Assembly: GCA_017460625.1 (NCBI GenBank)
Contig: JAFUAT010000006.1
Coordinates: 1-43,470, forward strand
Direction: 5' to 3'
Length of the DNA: 43,470 nt
DNA from: Candidatus Saccharimonadota bacterium
GTDB lineage: Bacteria > Patescibacteriota > Saccharimonadia > Saccharimonadales > Saccharimonadaceae
Shown: positions 1-5,128 of the stretch, piece after piece
Layout of the letters: each line of letters begins with the position of its first letter
How positions within the stretch are numbered: the stretch's first letter is position 1
Notes under the pieces: model-generated
Seen by the model: the letters and a program-made list of their open reading frames with translations, nothing else
Told to the model about the DNA's origin: nothing
Database searches by the model: none
Made by a program: the position numbers and the translations under genes

Positions 1-317
1 AAGGCGATTTCTATAAAATGCTTGTAGCCTACGGTATGAATGGAAATAATTATTATGCTAATTCTAGTACTTCGCCAACTGGAGCTACTATTTACTCGGC
101 AATTTCTAGCGGTACAGTGCCTAGTTTCTTGCTCGCCGGCTACTACGACGATAGTTCGTTCAACAATGGGGGCAGCTACGGCTACTATTGGTCGTCGTCG
201 TCTGGCTCGTCGACTCTCGCCTATTACTTGTACTTCAGTTCGTCCCGCGTGAATTCGGCGAATAACTACGGTCGTCGTCGCGGATTCCCAGTGCGTTGTG
301 TGCTGAGCGAGAGTTAG
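1..317 (+). CDS. C-terminal part of a DGR target protein (C-type-lectin-like, FISUMP/DUF1566-type)
   Basis: The gene enters from the left edge with its reading frame open from base 3; only about 104 residues and the stop are visible. The end has the pattern YWSSSS..., followed by GFPVRCV, which resembles the Fibrobacter succinogenes major paralogous (FISUMP)/DUF1566 and formylglycine-generating-enzyme-like C-lectin folds that often carry DGR variable regions. The last 66 codons fall within the variable repeat, and the variable residues are mostly Tyr, Asp, Gly, Arg, Ser and Leu where the template encodes Asn. The role is inferred: a probably surface-exposed ligand-binding protein whose binding face is diversified. 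Signal peptide and N-terminal domains lie outside the window, so localisation cannot be judged. Confidence 0.85.
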   Translation, partial: GDFYKMLVAYGMNGNNYYANSSTSPTGATIYSAISSGTVPSFLLAGYYDDSSFNNGGSYGYYWSSSSGSSTLAYYLYFSSSRVNSANNYGRRRGFPVRCVLSES

Positions 318-345
318 TTCTAGTTTTCCTAGTTCCCTCTCTCCA
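116..345 (+). repeat. DGR variable repeat (VR)
   Basis: This 230-bp stretch aligns without gaps to the reverse complement of 2485-2714. There are 19 mismatches, all at positions that are A in the template: 9 A to G, 7 A to T, 3 A to C. They fall in 14 codons that are AAC or AAT in the template. The 3' part, from the last variable codon through the stop codon (315-317) and 28 bases beyond, is identical in both copies, as expected for an initiation-of-mutagenic-homing region. Confidence 0.95.
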
Positions 346-370
346 CGTCTTCAAAACTGGAAAAATTACT

Positions 371-399
371 TTGCGGATTTTCTGCACATCGTGTATAAT
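371..399 (+). promoter_or_regulatory. Promoter of the DGR accessory-RT operon
   Basis: TTGCGG (371-376), a 17-bp spacer and TATAAT (394-399) precede the accessory gene, leaving a leader of about 22 nt. No terminator hairpin is obvious between the target gene stop (317) and this promoter, so read-through from the target gene is also possible. Confidence 0.55.
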
Positions 400-427
400 A
401 GGACTAATAAACGGGTAGAAACGCAAA

Positions 428-1342
428 ATGGAAAAAACCGTTCTCTCAGATAAGGTGAGGGCAAAAGAAGAATACCTAGAACGCAAGCGTCGATTGCTCC
501 AAATTGAAAAAAATAATTATTCCAAGGTGTACGTGATCAGGTCGTTTGACGGGTGGTATAAAATCTTTGGTAATTCGGCGTTGATATTGTCTCGGTATCT
601 CATGCACAGAGTGGGGAGGCAGTATAAACTACACAAAGACAATGACTACATGGTGCGTGATAAAATCGGCAGTATTTCCATCCCGGAAAATTCGGTTGGC
701 GAACTAAAGATGCGGATGGAGAGCGCAAAGTTGAGACTAGCGCGTGAATGGGAGAAAGGGTTGGAATTTGAACTCGGTGAAACAATCTCCAAAGAAGACA
801 TGGCGCAGATGCTCCATGAAGACGAAATTCTCACCGAGAAGGCGAATCAACTGGTGGTGCCGCATGCTATCATGCCAGAGCTAAAGATGCGAGTTGTCGA
901 AATGGTACGAGTGGTGCACGAAGTGACTTCCAATCAGAAAGCGCTTTCTAAAATCGCGTTTCTTTCTGACATGGAAAGAAACGCGGTGGATATTGACATG
1001 ATGACGGTGGCGCTGGGGCGAAGAAAAATAGAAATAGACACCTGTCTTGAAATGATACTTGAAAAACTCGAAACGATGTATGAATACGTAACGGTAATGT
1101 CGGATTTAGAGATGATGACGCCCAAAAAATATTGGGAAGTCTTGAAGAAGATACGCGACGTGGAAAGCCAAATTATGCGCGAAATGAAGAAACAGGCAAT
1201 CAAAAAAGTTGAAAAAGAGCACGAAAAAGGAAAGGGACAAAATGCCAAGTCAAGAGGAAAAAAGAAAGAGAGTTCGGAATCTAAGGAACTTTCTAACTCA
1301 GATGAACGCCTATCATCCGCCGAAGAAAAAGAGACGGAATGA
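428..1342 (+). CDS. DGR accessory protein: MutS-domain-I-like N-terminus with Avd-like helical C-terminus
   Basis: 304 residues. Residues about 34-110 (YVIRSFDGWYKIFGNSALIL, then SISIPENSVGEL) resemble MutS domain I, the mismatch-recognition fold with its G-D-F-Y-E-x-F-G core. MutS-like accessory genes are a known DGR class. Residues about 150-262 look wholly helical; the stretch from about 222 to 250 (MSDLEMMTPKKYWEVL and onward) recalls the last helices of Avd, the four-helix-bundle partner of DGR reverse transcriptases. The last 40 residues are a Lys/Glu/Ser-rich tail overlapping the RT gene by 101 bp in another frame. Likely role: binds the template RNA or the RT and helps cDNA priming. 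The MutS-like part is moderately sure; the Avd-like part is an inference from helix pattern only. Confidence 0.7.
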   Translation: MEKTVLSDKVRAKEEYLERKRRLLQIEKNNYSKVYVIRSFDGWYKIFGNSALILSRYLMHRVGRQYKLHKDNDYMVRDKIGSISIPENSVGELKMRMESAKLRLAREWEKGLEFELGETISKEDMAQMLHEDEILTEKANQLVVPHAIMPELKMRVVEMVRVVHEVTSNQKALSKIAFLSDMERNAVDIDMMTVALGRRKIEIDTCLEMILEKLETMYEYVTVMSDLEMMTPKKYWEVLKKIRDVESQIMREMKKQAIKKVEKEHEKGKGQNAKSRGKKKESSESKELSNSDERLSSAEEKETE

Positions 1343-2459
1343 TAGGAATTTTTTGAAACGTCTGCCTCAGCGAGATGAAGATTTGGAAAGCACCTTACTC
1401 GAGTGCTATATTATGGCAAGGCGTGGTAAAAGACGGACGGCGGACGAACATAAATTTGAAGTATATCTAGAAGAAAATTTGTCACAACTTGCACATGATA
1501 TAATTAATCGACAGTGGAAACCAAGCCGGTCAAAAGCTTTTGTGACACATACGCCAGTAGATAGGGAAATTTTTGCCGCACAATTTAGAGATAGAATTGT
1601 ACACCATTTATTATATGCGGTAGTAGCACCGTGGTGGGATAAGAGATTTATTTATGATTCCTATTCTTGCCGGGCAGAAAAAGGAACGGACTTTGGAATT
1701 AGCCGGATGCAAAGTTTTATGCGGAAGGCGAGCGAAAATGGCAAAAACAAGGCATACGTCTTAAAAGGAGATTTGTCTGGATACTTTATGAGCCTGGATA
1801 GAAAAAGATTATATGAAAAAGTGATGTGGGGGCTAAAGAAACAATTTCCGAATGGTGGGTGGCTGTATCGGCTTTGTAAATATTTGTGGCGCGAAGTGAT
1901 TTTTGATGAACCGTGTTTTGGGGCTAGAATTGTTGGGAGTTTTAAGGATTGGGAATGTTTGCCCTATAACAAAACGTTGTTTCATCAACCTGATGGACGT
2001 GGAATTGTGATTGGAAATTTGACATCACAGCTCTTGTCGAATATTATGTTGAATGATTTTGACTGGTACGTGAAAAAGAAACTCGGTTTTGCTTTTTATG
2101 GACGGTATGTGGATGACTTTTTTATAGTGGTTCCTGAAAAAGAATTGACTCGGGCTAAAAAAGCGTTTTTCAATGAAATTCCTCTGAAGCTGAGCAGCAT
2201 GGAACTAACTATGCATCCAAAAAAGATTTATATCCAAGAAGTGAAGAAAGGGTGCCCGTTTCTTGGGAAAGTGGTGCGACCGTTCGTCTTGACGCCAGGA
2301 AGAAGATATTTAAAGAATATGAAGATTGCGCTAAATGCCTACGTGGACGGCAAGACGGGGTTTGACACGGCGAAATCTTACATCGGGATGAGTAGAAATA
2401 TGTCGGCTTATCTCGTGATTGATAAAACGATTGAACAGATTGAATCAAGAATTGGTTGA
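1242..2459 (+). CDS. DGR reverse transcriptase
   Basis: 405 residues. Copies the template-repeat RNA into cDNA with random incorporation opposite adenines. Visible motifs: DLSGYFMSLD (about 177-186, first catalytic Asp), IGNLTSQ (257-263, the DGR-type (I/V/L)GxxxSQ motif in place of the retroviral QG), and the catalytic YVDD (289-292). The ATG at 1242 is chosen because AAGGG lies five bases upstream; a TTG at 1209 in the same frame has no such support. It overlaps the accessory gene, implying translational coupling. The C-terminus ends only 25 bp before the template repeat, which lies on the other strand. Confidence 0.95.
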   Translation: MPSQEEKRKRVRNLRNFLTQMNAYHPPKKKRRNDRNFLKRLPQRDEDLESTLLECYIMARRGKRRTADEHKFEVYLEENLSQLAHDIINRQWKPSRSKAFVTHTPVDREIFAAQFRDRIVHHLLYAVVAPWWDKRFIYDSYSCRAEKGTDFGISRMQSFMRKASENGKNKAYVLKGDLSGYFMSLDRKRLYEKVMWGLKKQFPNGGWLYRLCKYLWREVIFDEPCFGARIVGSFKDWECLPYNKTLFHQPDGRGIVIGNLTSQLLSNIMLNDFDWYVKKKLGFAFYGRYVDDFFIVVPEKELTRAKKAFFNEIPLKLSSMELTMHPKKIYIQEVKKGCPFLGKVVRPFVLTPGRRYLKNMKIALNAYVDGKTGFDTAKSYIGMSRNMSAYLVIDKTIEQIESRIG

Positions 2460-2484
2460 AGGTATACAAAATGCTCTGAAGAAA

Positions 2485-2714
2485 TGGAGAGAGGGAACTA
2501 GGAAAACTAGAACTAACTCTCGCTCAGCACACAACGCACTGGGAATCCGTTACGACGATTGTTGTTATTCGCCGAATTCACGTTGGACGAATTGAAGTTC
2601 AAGTTATAGGCGTTAGTCGACGAGTTAGACGACGACGACCAATAGTTGCCGTTGCTGCCCCCATTGTTGAACGAACTATTGTTGTAGTTGCCGGCGAGCA
2701 AGAAACTAGGCACT
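2485..2714 (-). repeat. DGR template repeat (TR), inverted relative to VR and RT
   Basis: Reverse complement matches the VR at 116-345. Template codons at variable sites are all AAC or AAT, which gives wide amino-acid diversity without stops. Read on the minus strand it would encode an Asn-rich version of the VR segment, but an in-frame stop precedes the GTG at 2725, so it is not treated as a gene. In most described DGRs the TR is co-oriented with the RT gene; here it is opposite. Confidence 0.95.
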
Positions 2715-3017
2715 CCAAACCACACGTGCGGATCCTAGGGGAACATTAGATTCTAAAAAATCATTATGAGTTTATCGGCGACTTTTTAGATGAATTGACT
2801 CAGGTTTTGCTCGACCTTGCGGGAGAGATTTTTTCTGAGAGTCCCCTACGTCTTCAGGGATATTTTTTATAAGGGGATTTTAAAGCAGCGATTTTTAGCT
2901 TGGCCCTAATGTTTTGCTCGCAATTTTTTAAAAAGATTTGGCGCTTGATTTCTTGATGCTCTTCCCTTAGTCTAAATATACCTTCTGGTATATATTATAT
3001 ATACTTAATCTCTGAAA
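2715..3017. other. Intergenic stretch upstream of the TR (probable TR RNA leader)
   Basis: No convincing coding region on either strand. On the minus strand a promoter (2994-3023) would transcribe through this stretch into the TR. It contains small hairpins such as ATATACC-ttct-GGTATAT (2976-2993). I see no recognisable gene remnant. Confidence 0.4.
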
Positions 3018-3023
3018 TGACAA
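2994..3023 (-). promoter_or_regulatory. Candidate promoter for template-repeat RNA
   Basis: On the minus strand TTGTCA (3023..3018), an 18-bp spacer and TATAAT (2999..2994) face the TR. The first base of the -35 touches the terminator hairpin of the neighbouring DUF5684 gene, so this start would be insulated from it. Transcription would give an RNA with about 270 nt before the TR. Confidence 0.45.
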
Positions 3024-3050
3024 AAATCGGGGTCTTAAGACCCCGATTTT
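3023..3050. terminator. Perfect 28-bp palindrome, intrinsic terminator
   Basis: AAAATCGGGGTCTT is followed directly by its complement AAGACCCCGATTTT, with flanking A and T tracts on both sides. It sits just after the minus-strand DUF5684 stop and can work in both directions, separating that gene from the DGR. Confidence 0.85.
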
Positions 3051-3061
3051 GATTTGTTTGA

Positions 3062-3610
3062 TTACTTATCTAGGTTTTTGGCGCTATATTTGGCTTTTCC
3101 AAATCCTAGTACTAAAAGTACGATTTCTGGGACGAAGATGATCCCCAGAGTGTAGCCGATGCCTTTACCAAAGGCTTTTGCCAGACGATGGGCCACGATG
3201 ACATAGAAGACTATGCTGGTGATTATGCTTATAACTGCGGCGGCAATGAATGGAATGTAGTTGTTCCAATCGAGAGCGTTCAATTGCTCGGTGATGACTT
3301 CTTGGGATGCGGTGTAATCTATCGGGAGAGCGTTTACGCCCATCGCGATGCTACAAATGATGCTAATGCAAAGCGATGCCCAGAAAATGGCTTTTGAGCC
3401 TGCGATTTTATATAATATATACATGTCGTAGATTGGGATAAGGGATTTCCAACCTTTTTCGCCAGCTTTTTCGAAAAGACGCCACATGGCGATGATGAGA
3501 AGCACGCAGATAATGAGCCCCATGACGAAGAAGGTTCCGATGAATCCACCGGCAAAGGCAGCTTCCGCGGCTGTGAGATCGTTAATGTTTGATGTTGTTA
3601 AAGTATTCAT
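3062..3610 (-). CDS. DUF5684-family membrane protein
   Basis: 182 residues with about four hydrophobic segments (near 22-45, 72-92, 118-140, 150-168). The motif WRLFEKAGEKGWKSLIPIYD after the first segment is the signature of the DUF5684 family, often found next to signal peptidase-type genes in Gram-positive and CPR genomes; its function is unknown. A Shine-Dalgarno AAAGGAG and an extended -10 (3638-3646) precede it, so unlike many neighbours it has a leader. Monocistronic, bounded by the palindromic terminator at 3023-3050. Confidence 0.85.
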   Translation of the reverse strand: MNTLTTSNINDLTAAEAAFAGGFIGTFFVMGLIICVLLIIAMWRLFEKAGEKGWKSLIPIYDMYILYKIAGSKAIFWASLCISIICSIAMGVNALPIDYTASQEVITEQLNALDWNNYIPFIAAAVISIITSIVFYVIVAHRLAKAFGKGIGYTLGIIFVPEIVLLVLGFGKAKYSAKNLDK

Positions 3611-3715: not shown

Positions 3716-3797
3716 AAAAAACGTGAGAAAAATCACGTTTTTCCCGCAAAAAACGTGAGAAAAATCACGTTTTTCCCGCAAAAAACGTGAGAAAAAT
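3716..3797. repeat. Tandem 32-bp palindromic repeat, 2.5 copies
   Basis: Two full 32-bp units (3716-3747, 3748-3779) and a half unit (3780-3797). Each full unit is an inverted repeat AAAAACGTGA-gaaaaa-TCACGTTTTT followed by CCCGC. This gives five ACGTGA/TCACGT half-sites at 3721, 3733, 3753, 3765 and 3785, with alternating 12- and 20-bp steps. It lies between divergent genes, directly upstream of the ATPase promoter, so an operator role is more likely than termination. Confidence 0.85.
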
Positions 3798-3838: not shown

Positions 3839-5128
3839 ATGTATAGAAAAGCAATTTTTGAGTTAGAAAGATGGAAAAATAGTTCGTCTCATAAGCCTTT
3901 AATCGTTAAGGGTGCACGTCAAGTGGGAAAAACTTGGCTGGTTAAGTTTTTTGGTGAAGAATATTTTGATAATCTTGTCTATATTAACTTCGATAAGGAT
4001 GAGACCGCTAAGAATATTTTTAATTTAGATTATAATATCGAAAGAATTATTAGCCGTCTTGCTGCACATACGCATCAGGATATTTCGCCTGAGAAATCTT
4101 TGATTTTTCTTGATGAGGTTCAGGAGTGTCCGAAGGCTTTAGAGTCTTTAAAATATTTCGCCGAAGATCATCCGGAATATTTTGTGGTGGCTGCCGGTAG
4201 TTTGCTTGGTGTTTACATGAACGTGGATGGAGCTTTTCCAGTTGGGAAGGTTGATTTTGTAAATATTTATCCTTTGGATTTTTGTGAATTTTTGTATGCT
4301 TTAGGCGAAAAAGAAATTGCCAAAGCTATTTCTAACAAAGATTTTGAGTTTACTTTGCCTTTTCACGATAAGCTTATCGACCTTTATAAGACTTATCTCG
4401 TGACTGGCGGAATGCCGGCCGTTGTTAATAAGTATATCGAGACAAAAAGCTTTAACGAAGTGCGTAAGGAACAGGAATATCTTGTTGAAGCATATAATAG
4501 AGATTTCGGTAAGCACGCGCCGACTAATGAGATTCCAAGGATTATTGAGATATTTAATATTGTGCCAAATATTTTGGCTAAAGAAAATAAAAAATTTATG
4601 TTCGGCGCCATTAGAGAAGGAGCCAGAGCACGAGAGTATGAAGCGGCTCTGCTTTGGTTGGTAAATGCTGGAATTGTGACAAAGGTAACTTGTGCGAATA
4701 AGATTGCTTTGCCGATTTCTGCTTATTCTAATCATGATATTTTTAAATTATTCTATCTAGATGTGGGGCTGCTGGGATATATGGCGCGGCTTCGTCCGGA
4801 GACTATTTTTGCCGATGAGCCTTTTTTGAAAGAGTTTAAGGGGGCGATGGCTGAACAGTTTGTGTTTCAAGAGCTAATTTCACATGAGATAACGCCGTTT
4901 TATTATTCAAAAGACAATTCGCGCGTTGAGCTTGATTTCTTAGTGGATACTTCTGATGGGCCGACACCGATTGAAGTAAAATCTGGCGTGGCGCTTGCTA
5001 GCAAATCTTTTGCAGGTGTGATGAGAGAAAATGGTGAGCTAAAGCTTGGTTATAAGATTTCGTTGCTTCCTTATAAGGTAAATGACAGAATTGTAAATCT
5101 TCCGATTTATTTGACAGGTGAGATATAA
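3839..5128 (+). CDS. AAA+ ATPase with DUF4143 C-terminal domain
   Basis: 429 residues. N-terminal P-loop ATPase with Walker A GARQVGKT (25-32) and a Walker B/sensor region around IFLDEVQECP (near 95-105). The C-terminal half has the DUF4143 pattern, including the late VELDFLVDT...IEVKSG segment that resembles a restriction-endonuclease-like fold. Proteins of this family are common and multicopy in bacteria and archaea; their cellular role is unsettled. It starts at ATG with AGGGG upstream. It is monocistronic, with only a tRNA gene on the other strand following at once. Confidence 0.9.
   Translation: MYRKAIFELERWKNSSSHKPLIVKGARQVGKTWLVKFFGEEYFDNLVYINFDKDETAKNIFNLDYNIERIISRLAAHTHQDISPEKSLIFLDEVQECPKALESLKYFAEDHPEYFVVAAGSLLGVYMNVDGAFPVGKVDFVNIYPLDFCEFLYALGEKEIAKAISNKDFEFTLPFHDKLIDLYKTYLVTGGMPAVVNKYIETKSFNEVRKEQEYLVEAYNRDFGKHAPTNEIPRIIEIFNIVPNILAKENKKFMFGAIREGARAREYEAALLWLVNAGIVTKVTCANKIALPISAYSNHDIFKLFYLDVGLLGYMARLRPETIFADEPFLKEFKGAMAEQFVFQELISHEITPFYYSKDNSRVELDFLVDTSDGPTPIEVKSGVALASKSFAGVMRENGELKLGYKISLLPYKVNDRIVNLPIYLTGEI

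Follow-up and report, generated by a model that had tools for sequence, protein, structure and literature searches.

The window analysed here, the whole contig C3 (43,470 bases) of a genome of 711,783 bases in 14 contigs, begins with a diversity-generating retroelement (DGR). Quite probably it represents a Saccharibacteria-specific DGR lineage, in which the template repeat (TR) would be a transcription unit of its own, convergent with the reverse transcriptase (RT) gene, and a leader-TR RNA would serve the homing of several variable repeats (VRs). The layout is common to dozens of relatives and suggests that their template RNA is built differently from that of the laboratory model. What seems new is the inverted template with its own predicted promoter, the conserved junction 5' of it, and the fused accessory protein. 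To our knowledge, the DGR mechanism is known almost solely from one phage system, in which the enzyme is recruited by an RNA on the 3' side of the template. A lineage that has no room for a 3' RNA, and that has a conserved 5' RNA, a fused accessory protein and a predicted template promoter of its own, offers a naturally occurring way to test which components are essential.

Judged by its sequence, the window element (Table 1) is a genuine DGR that is cut at the contig start. VR and TR differ at 19 positions in 230 nt and all 19 are adenines in the TR (nine A to G, seven A to T, and three A to C), in agreement with a preliminary description of this DNA; given the base composition of the TR, the probability of 19 out of 19 by chance is about 1.6e-12. 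The changes sit in 14 of the 19 AAY codons, the 14 that had been described before, and in the coding part of the TR 19 of 38 AAY adenines were altered versus none of the 13 other adenines (the AAY statistics cover the window locus). Over its last 64 bases (282-345), 28 of which follow the stop codon, the VR matches the TR exactly, and this segment is an IMH candidate. The RT has both DGR-type motifs, (I/L/V)GxxxSQ and YxDD: the motifs reported earlier were found as GIVIGNLTSQ and YGRYVDDF, together with an RVT_1 match. G-N-T-S-Q is invariant in 13 relatives, and RTs of known DGR phages are among the relatives of this RT. By RT, the closest named relatives are ruminant-gut Candidatus Saccharibacteria, including Ca. 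Nanosyncoccus alces, and the epibiont lifestyle of the lineage rests on this kinship.

The C-lectin-like end proposed for the target gene was borne out by matches of PF09603 and TIGR02145. A ligand-binding-type fold (the Fib_succ_major/FISUMP C-lectin-like domain) is thus present at the 3' end of the target gene, where the VR lies. With the DGR-like RT, the adenine-only mismatches and this target end, the earlier reading, a CPR-bacterial DGR acting on a protein with a C-lectin fold, is supported. The element had also been called complete, and this is only partly right: VR, TR and RT are there, but the 5' part of the target gene is missing since the gene extends past the start of the contig. 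The target may be an attachment protein that is being diversified at present. Absent from the preliminary description are the inverted orientation of the TR and its structured leader, the fusion in the accessory protein, and both the second DGR and the VRs at remote sites.

Table 1. Features of the DGR at the start of the window (positions are those of the window)
Feature	Position	Strand	Remarks
Target gene 3' end, 104 aa	3..317	+	C-terminal Fib_succ_major/FISUMP C-lectin-like domain; PF09603 E=1.7e-6, TIGR02145 E=4.1e-6
Variable repeat (VR)	116..345	+	Gapless 230-nt alignment to reverse complement of 2485-2714
Accessory protein, 304 aa	428..1342	+	N-terminal MutS-domain-I-like (~1-125, weak fold match) and C-terminal Avd four-helix bundle (~146-259), both by predicted structure
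DGR reverse transcriptase	1209..2459	+	IGNLTSQ, YVDD; overlaps accessory gene end; RVT_1 match
Template repeat (TR)	2485..2714	-	Opposite orientation to VR and RT; 3' end 25 nt from RT stop
Predicted three-way-junction RNA, 5' leader of TR transcript	2736..2848	-	Fold common with nearest relative L070
Leader helix P1	2848-2842/2742-2736	-	7-bp closing helix
Leader helix P2	2839-2835/2803-2799	-	Predicted fold
Leader helix P3	2790-2779/2763-2752	-	Predicted fold
Predicted TR promoter	2994..3023	-	TTGTCA-N18-TATAAT, 11/12 consensus bases; 1 match versus 1.4 in shuffles
Bidirectional intrinsic-terminator-like hairpin	3023..3050	.	Sets TR unit apart from neighbouring gene

In the window, the TR is read convergently with the RT gene, and its 3' end is 25 bases beyond the RT stop codon. 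This arrangement is a feature of the lineage. Where the VR/TR pair of a related genome locus was clear, the TR sense strand was opposite the RT in 56 of 62 cases, almost all of them with the TR directly downstream (median gap 33 nt). For viral contigs we took the nearest 80 IMG/VR relatives, 68 of which had a clear VR/TR pair, and none of these 68 DGRs had an inverted TR, all of them having the TR on the RT strand. In the RT tree the inverted loci formed a single clade (support 98/90; 100/99 in an earlier tree) with few secondary changes: leader and TR are on the RT strand in L080, and the accessory-RT block is flipped between TR and VR in L017 and L120. In the sister clade, the TR is downstream on the same strand, while most outer relatives have it upstream. 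Orientation variants as such have been catalogued among the 122 DGR cassette patterns by order and orientation in PMC6642488 (for example G5, with an inverted RT). In the present lineage, VR and RT are on one strand and the TR on the opposite one, lineage-wide. The DGRs of clade 2 from CPR bacteria (PMC8144416) resemble the window DGR in host group, in being cell-encoded and in their C-lectin-like target ends; the main text of that survey has nothing on orientation or on an opposite strand.

The TR appears to be a transcription unit of its own, with a predicted promoter. Across loci, TATAAT on the TR strand clusters about 185 nt upstream of the TR. The idea that these loci generally have a terminator between RT and TR was rejected: TR-sense terminator-like sites were found in 11 of 57 loci versus about two expected, and thus belong to some loci only, such as the second DGR of this genome (L003), which has a clear hairpin between RT and TR.

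In two groups of syntenic loci (L070 and L113 versus L116; L093, L097 and L143 versus L107), the accessory-RT-TR block is flipped and the orientation of the target is unchanged. We deduced the replication strand from third-position GC skew and counted the 46 loci in which the skew was clear. The VR sense strand was the leading strand in 42 of them (91%) versus 67% of neighbouring ORFs (p=1.3e-4), and the association between target and replication was kept in both VR orientations (Fisher 1e-6). RT orientation showed no bias relative to replication and was the same as the background. When syntenic loci were merged the orientation test became weaker (p=0.007 to 0.04). In the genome of the window, four of the six VRs are co-directional with replication and two are seemingly on the lagging strand.

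It is quite possible that co-directionality is a general trait of large, well expressed surface genes, as the leading strand holds most of the neighbouring ORFs, and its share rises to 71% for ORFs of at least 400 aa. Against this, targets reach 91%, their orientation stays in the two syntenic groups where the RT cassette flips, and an independent preference is known: BPP-1 editing in E. coli prefers a target that is co-directional with replication (PMC12875486). If homing favours such targets, this would explain the fixed target orientation while the RT cassette flips. The wild genomes add comparative support for the dependence of DGR editing on replication direction recently seen in E. coli. 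We also considered whether the inversion protects the template by giving the TR the orientation in which homing is disfavoured. This suits the loci with an upstream VR but not the loci with TR and VR in tandem, and therefore we make no such claim.

The RT-binding spacer of BPP-1 lies 3' of its TR (PMC12875486). A structured 3' spacer of this type is absent between TR and RT in the window, where the TR stops short of the RT stop codon on the opposite strand, and its 3' flank is 25 nt followed by the antisense of the RT gene. There was no sign of a spacer hidden on the antisense strand of the RT 3' end, since no extra synonymous constraint was found there: the ratio of observed to expected synonymous codon identity was flat, and 1.0 in the last 20 columns. 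In canonical relatives, the TR 3' flank is about 15-20 nt to the RT start, and many viral contigs have about 30-65 nt here. Since this flank consists of RT antisense sequence in the inverted loci and leads to the RT start in the canonical ones, no common 3' element beyond the TR is possible.

On the 5' side, comparison of the loci indicates that a predicted three-way-junction RNA is conserved across the lineage. The window leader folds to the same P1-P2-P3 form as that of L070, with compensatory differences in P3. In an alignment of 30 leaders fitted to the model structure, 83% of the cells were paired and 183 cells had double changes versus 64.8 in shuffles; the covariation score of these 30 sequences was 0.711 versus at most 0.202 when slid. 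The counts for P1 are biased because this helix served to pick the first 19 training leaders. Helices P2 and P3 and the matches at loci outside the training set are more independent evidence. A YNMG tetraloop frequently closes P3 (on stems of at least 6 bp in 16 leaders versus 1.2 expected). The refined leader model, run over 1.45 Mb, matched almost exclusively in TR leaders, including that of L080, and had no match among the canonical control loci, L086 aside. Applied to 192 genomes of the phylum, this model gave two matches, both at DGR leaders. The leader of the second DGR in the genome of the window was matched by the covariance model (E=0.0067), while the window leader scored only 3.8 bits and is not recognised by the model itself, the case for it being the fold in common with L070.

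Since the 3' flanks are unrelated and the 5' junction is common across rearrangements, we infer a role of the leader in recruiting the RT-accessory complex, and we lean slightly towards reading it as an RT-binding module. It is rather unlikely that the leader instead regulates or stabilises the TR transcript (as an attenuator or a processing site) while the RT recognises a conserved TR 3' end. Downstream of the last changed A, TR and VR stay near-identical for a median of 53 nt, so the TR 3' end is constrained, and the BPP-1 spacer is on that side too (PMC12875486). However, the lack of any shared element beyond the TR, the presence of the 5' junction in both inverted and canonical loci, and the L080 locus, where leader and TR went to the other strand together, argue for the RT-binding module.

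The canonical relatives also have structured RNAs at this place. In L155, a match to the Rfam family RT-7 (RF03028, 132 bits) is directly 5' of the TR, and L018 and L021 have weak RT-7 matches, also directly 5' of the TR. Both RNAs are three-way junctions in which a 7-bp closing helix surrounds two hairpins. The RT-7 model, however, had no match in the window (E up to 1) or in two leaders of the inverted lineage (E up to 10), and therefore the homology of RT-7 and the inverted-lineage leader is only suggested, by plan and place. Rfam describes RT-7 just as an sRNA; the family gains a possible role here. We give about an even chance to the wider proposal that a 5' three-way junction is recognised in canonical RT-7 relatives and the inverted lineage alike, that leader and TR are one mobile unit, and that the fusion of a MutS-I-like domain to Avd co-evolved with the inverted form.

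According to its predicted structure (AlphaFold, pLDDT 86.6), the accessory protein is a fusion, with an Avd four-helix bundle behind a MutS-domain-I-like domain. Residues 150-259 matched BPP-1 Avd (4dwl; Z 14.3, rmsd 1.9, 107 aligned), which makes this an Avd-type accessory by fold, and the bundle also matched the DGR ribonucleoprotein 8ub7 (Z 14.7). When the N-terminal domain was modelled separately (pLDDT 95), the best match was MutS domain I, a weak one at Z 6.3 that was tied with GFRP, an unrelated fold, at Z 5.8. A Pfam search of the window protein gave no significant family, PF01624 included (one relative reached E=0.07), and no Pfam or PDB sequence profile was significant for shared domains. 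The fused accessory was found in 71 of the 80 loci; the nine others are loci cut by contig ends, five loci with the TR downstream on the same strand, and L128. Canonical relatives have an ordinary small Avd. A MutS-like accessory of DGRs, MSL (PF01624), is named in PMC10053308 with reference to an earlier survey. Like MSL, the window protein is encoded next to the RT, and its N-terminal domain has its best, though weak, fold matches in MutS domain I, but it lacks the PF01624 match and is fused to an Avd bundle.

These parts can be put together in a tentative mechanism. RNA polymerase would start at about position 2987 (minus strand) and produce the leader-TR RNA, and the RT and the Avd part of the fusion protein would bind the leader junction. 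The RT would then copy the TR with misincorporation opposite A. The mutated cDNA would replace the local and the remote VR, with the 64 identical 3' bases as the putative homing site, and homing would work best where the target is co-directional with replication. The outcome would be a varied C-lectin tip on secreted proteins. The window DGR resembles BPP-1 (brt, avd, TR, and the VR in mtd) in the adenine-specific VR/TR differences, the DGR-type RT, the Avd fold of the accessory, and the C-lectin-like target end with the VR at the C-terminus. Unlike BPP-1, its TR is inverted and downstream of the RT, its Avd is fused to another domain, and it has no room for a 3' spacer and has a conserved RNA structure 5' of the TR; it also differs in its remote targets and in the VR/TR identity at the 3' end. 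The proposed order of leader and then TR is closer to the msr-msd order of retrons than to the TR-spacer order of BPP-1.

Remote targets, which were not detectable in the survey PMC8144416, were found for both TRs of this genome. The window TR has a remote VR on contig C2, with 14 of 14 differences at TR adenines. The C2 target is a complete ORF of 460 aa whose N-terminus resembles a signal peptide and which carries a Fib_succ_major domain. A second DGR, likewise with an inverted TR, is at the start of contig C14, and its TR has VRs on C14, C9, C5, and C7, in which 19/20, 20/20, 23/24, and 26/31 differences, respectively, are at adenines. The C5 target contains an InlB-type repeat. The copy on C7, a truncated ORF of 68 aa in which some mismatches are not at A, has probably decayed. 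That the window element has itself decayed, leaving VR and TR as inactive relics, is improbable, as the reading frames of its RT and accessory protein are uninterrupted and conserved, and the window TR and both its VRs have A changes only, with zero background mutations. Several VRs of this genome are at contig starts (C3, C9, and C14), where the assembly breaks, yet it is extremely improbable that the inverted TR is an assembly artefact of the repeat pair, because the layout is found at 56 loci, which come from numerous independent samples and often lie well inside contigs, and leader and predicted promoter are on the TR strand as well. The two TRs together serve at least six VRs; in this parasite, whose genome is 0.7 Mb, one TR is shared by more than one secreted protein.

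Two contigs of the window's own genome, C9 and C14, are identical over their first 141 bases and then continue into different VR sequences (positions 1-350 of each compared). The assembly is broken at DGR target ends held in common, and thus target diversity is probably undercounted. At the related locus L081, the TR leader RNA is present twice behind a single RT (2530-2612 and 3084-3166, both on the TR strand), which suggests two template units. One Saccharibacteria genome of 0.7 Mb (G384, with locus L147) contains three RVT_1 genes, and therefore it is not unusual here for a tiny genome to have several DGRs.

The RT of locus L128 shares 49% identity with the window RT, and its MAG is labelled Deltaproteobacteria; this points to a misbinned contig or a transfer. 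This locus has no fusion accessory. In locus L045 and in about 6 of the 55 accessory N-termini, the accessory protein has an additional N-terminal helix-turn-helix domain (PF01381).

Each of the genome's two DGRs is followed by a gene that resembles an AAA ATPase with a DUF4143-type C-terminus. Since such genes are common, their placement may be due to chance.

AAA ATPase/DUF4143-like genes after the two DGRs (L003, second DGR locus)
Neighbouring DGR	Position	Basis
Window DGR	window 3839-5128	translation, by eye
Second DGR	L003:3212-4423	translation, by eye

A short palindromic unit (aaaacgtgagaaaaatcacgttttt cccgc) occurs in tandem copies at about 3716-3790 of the window.
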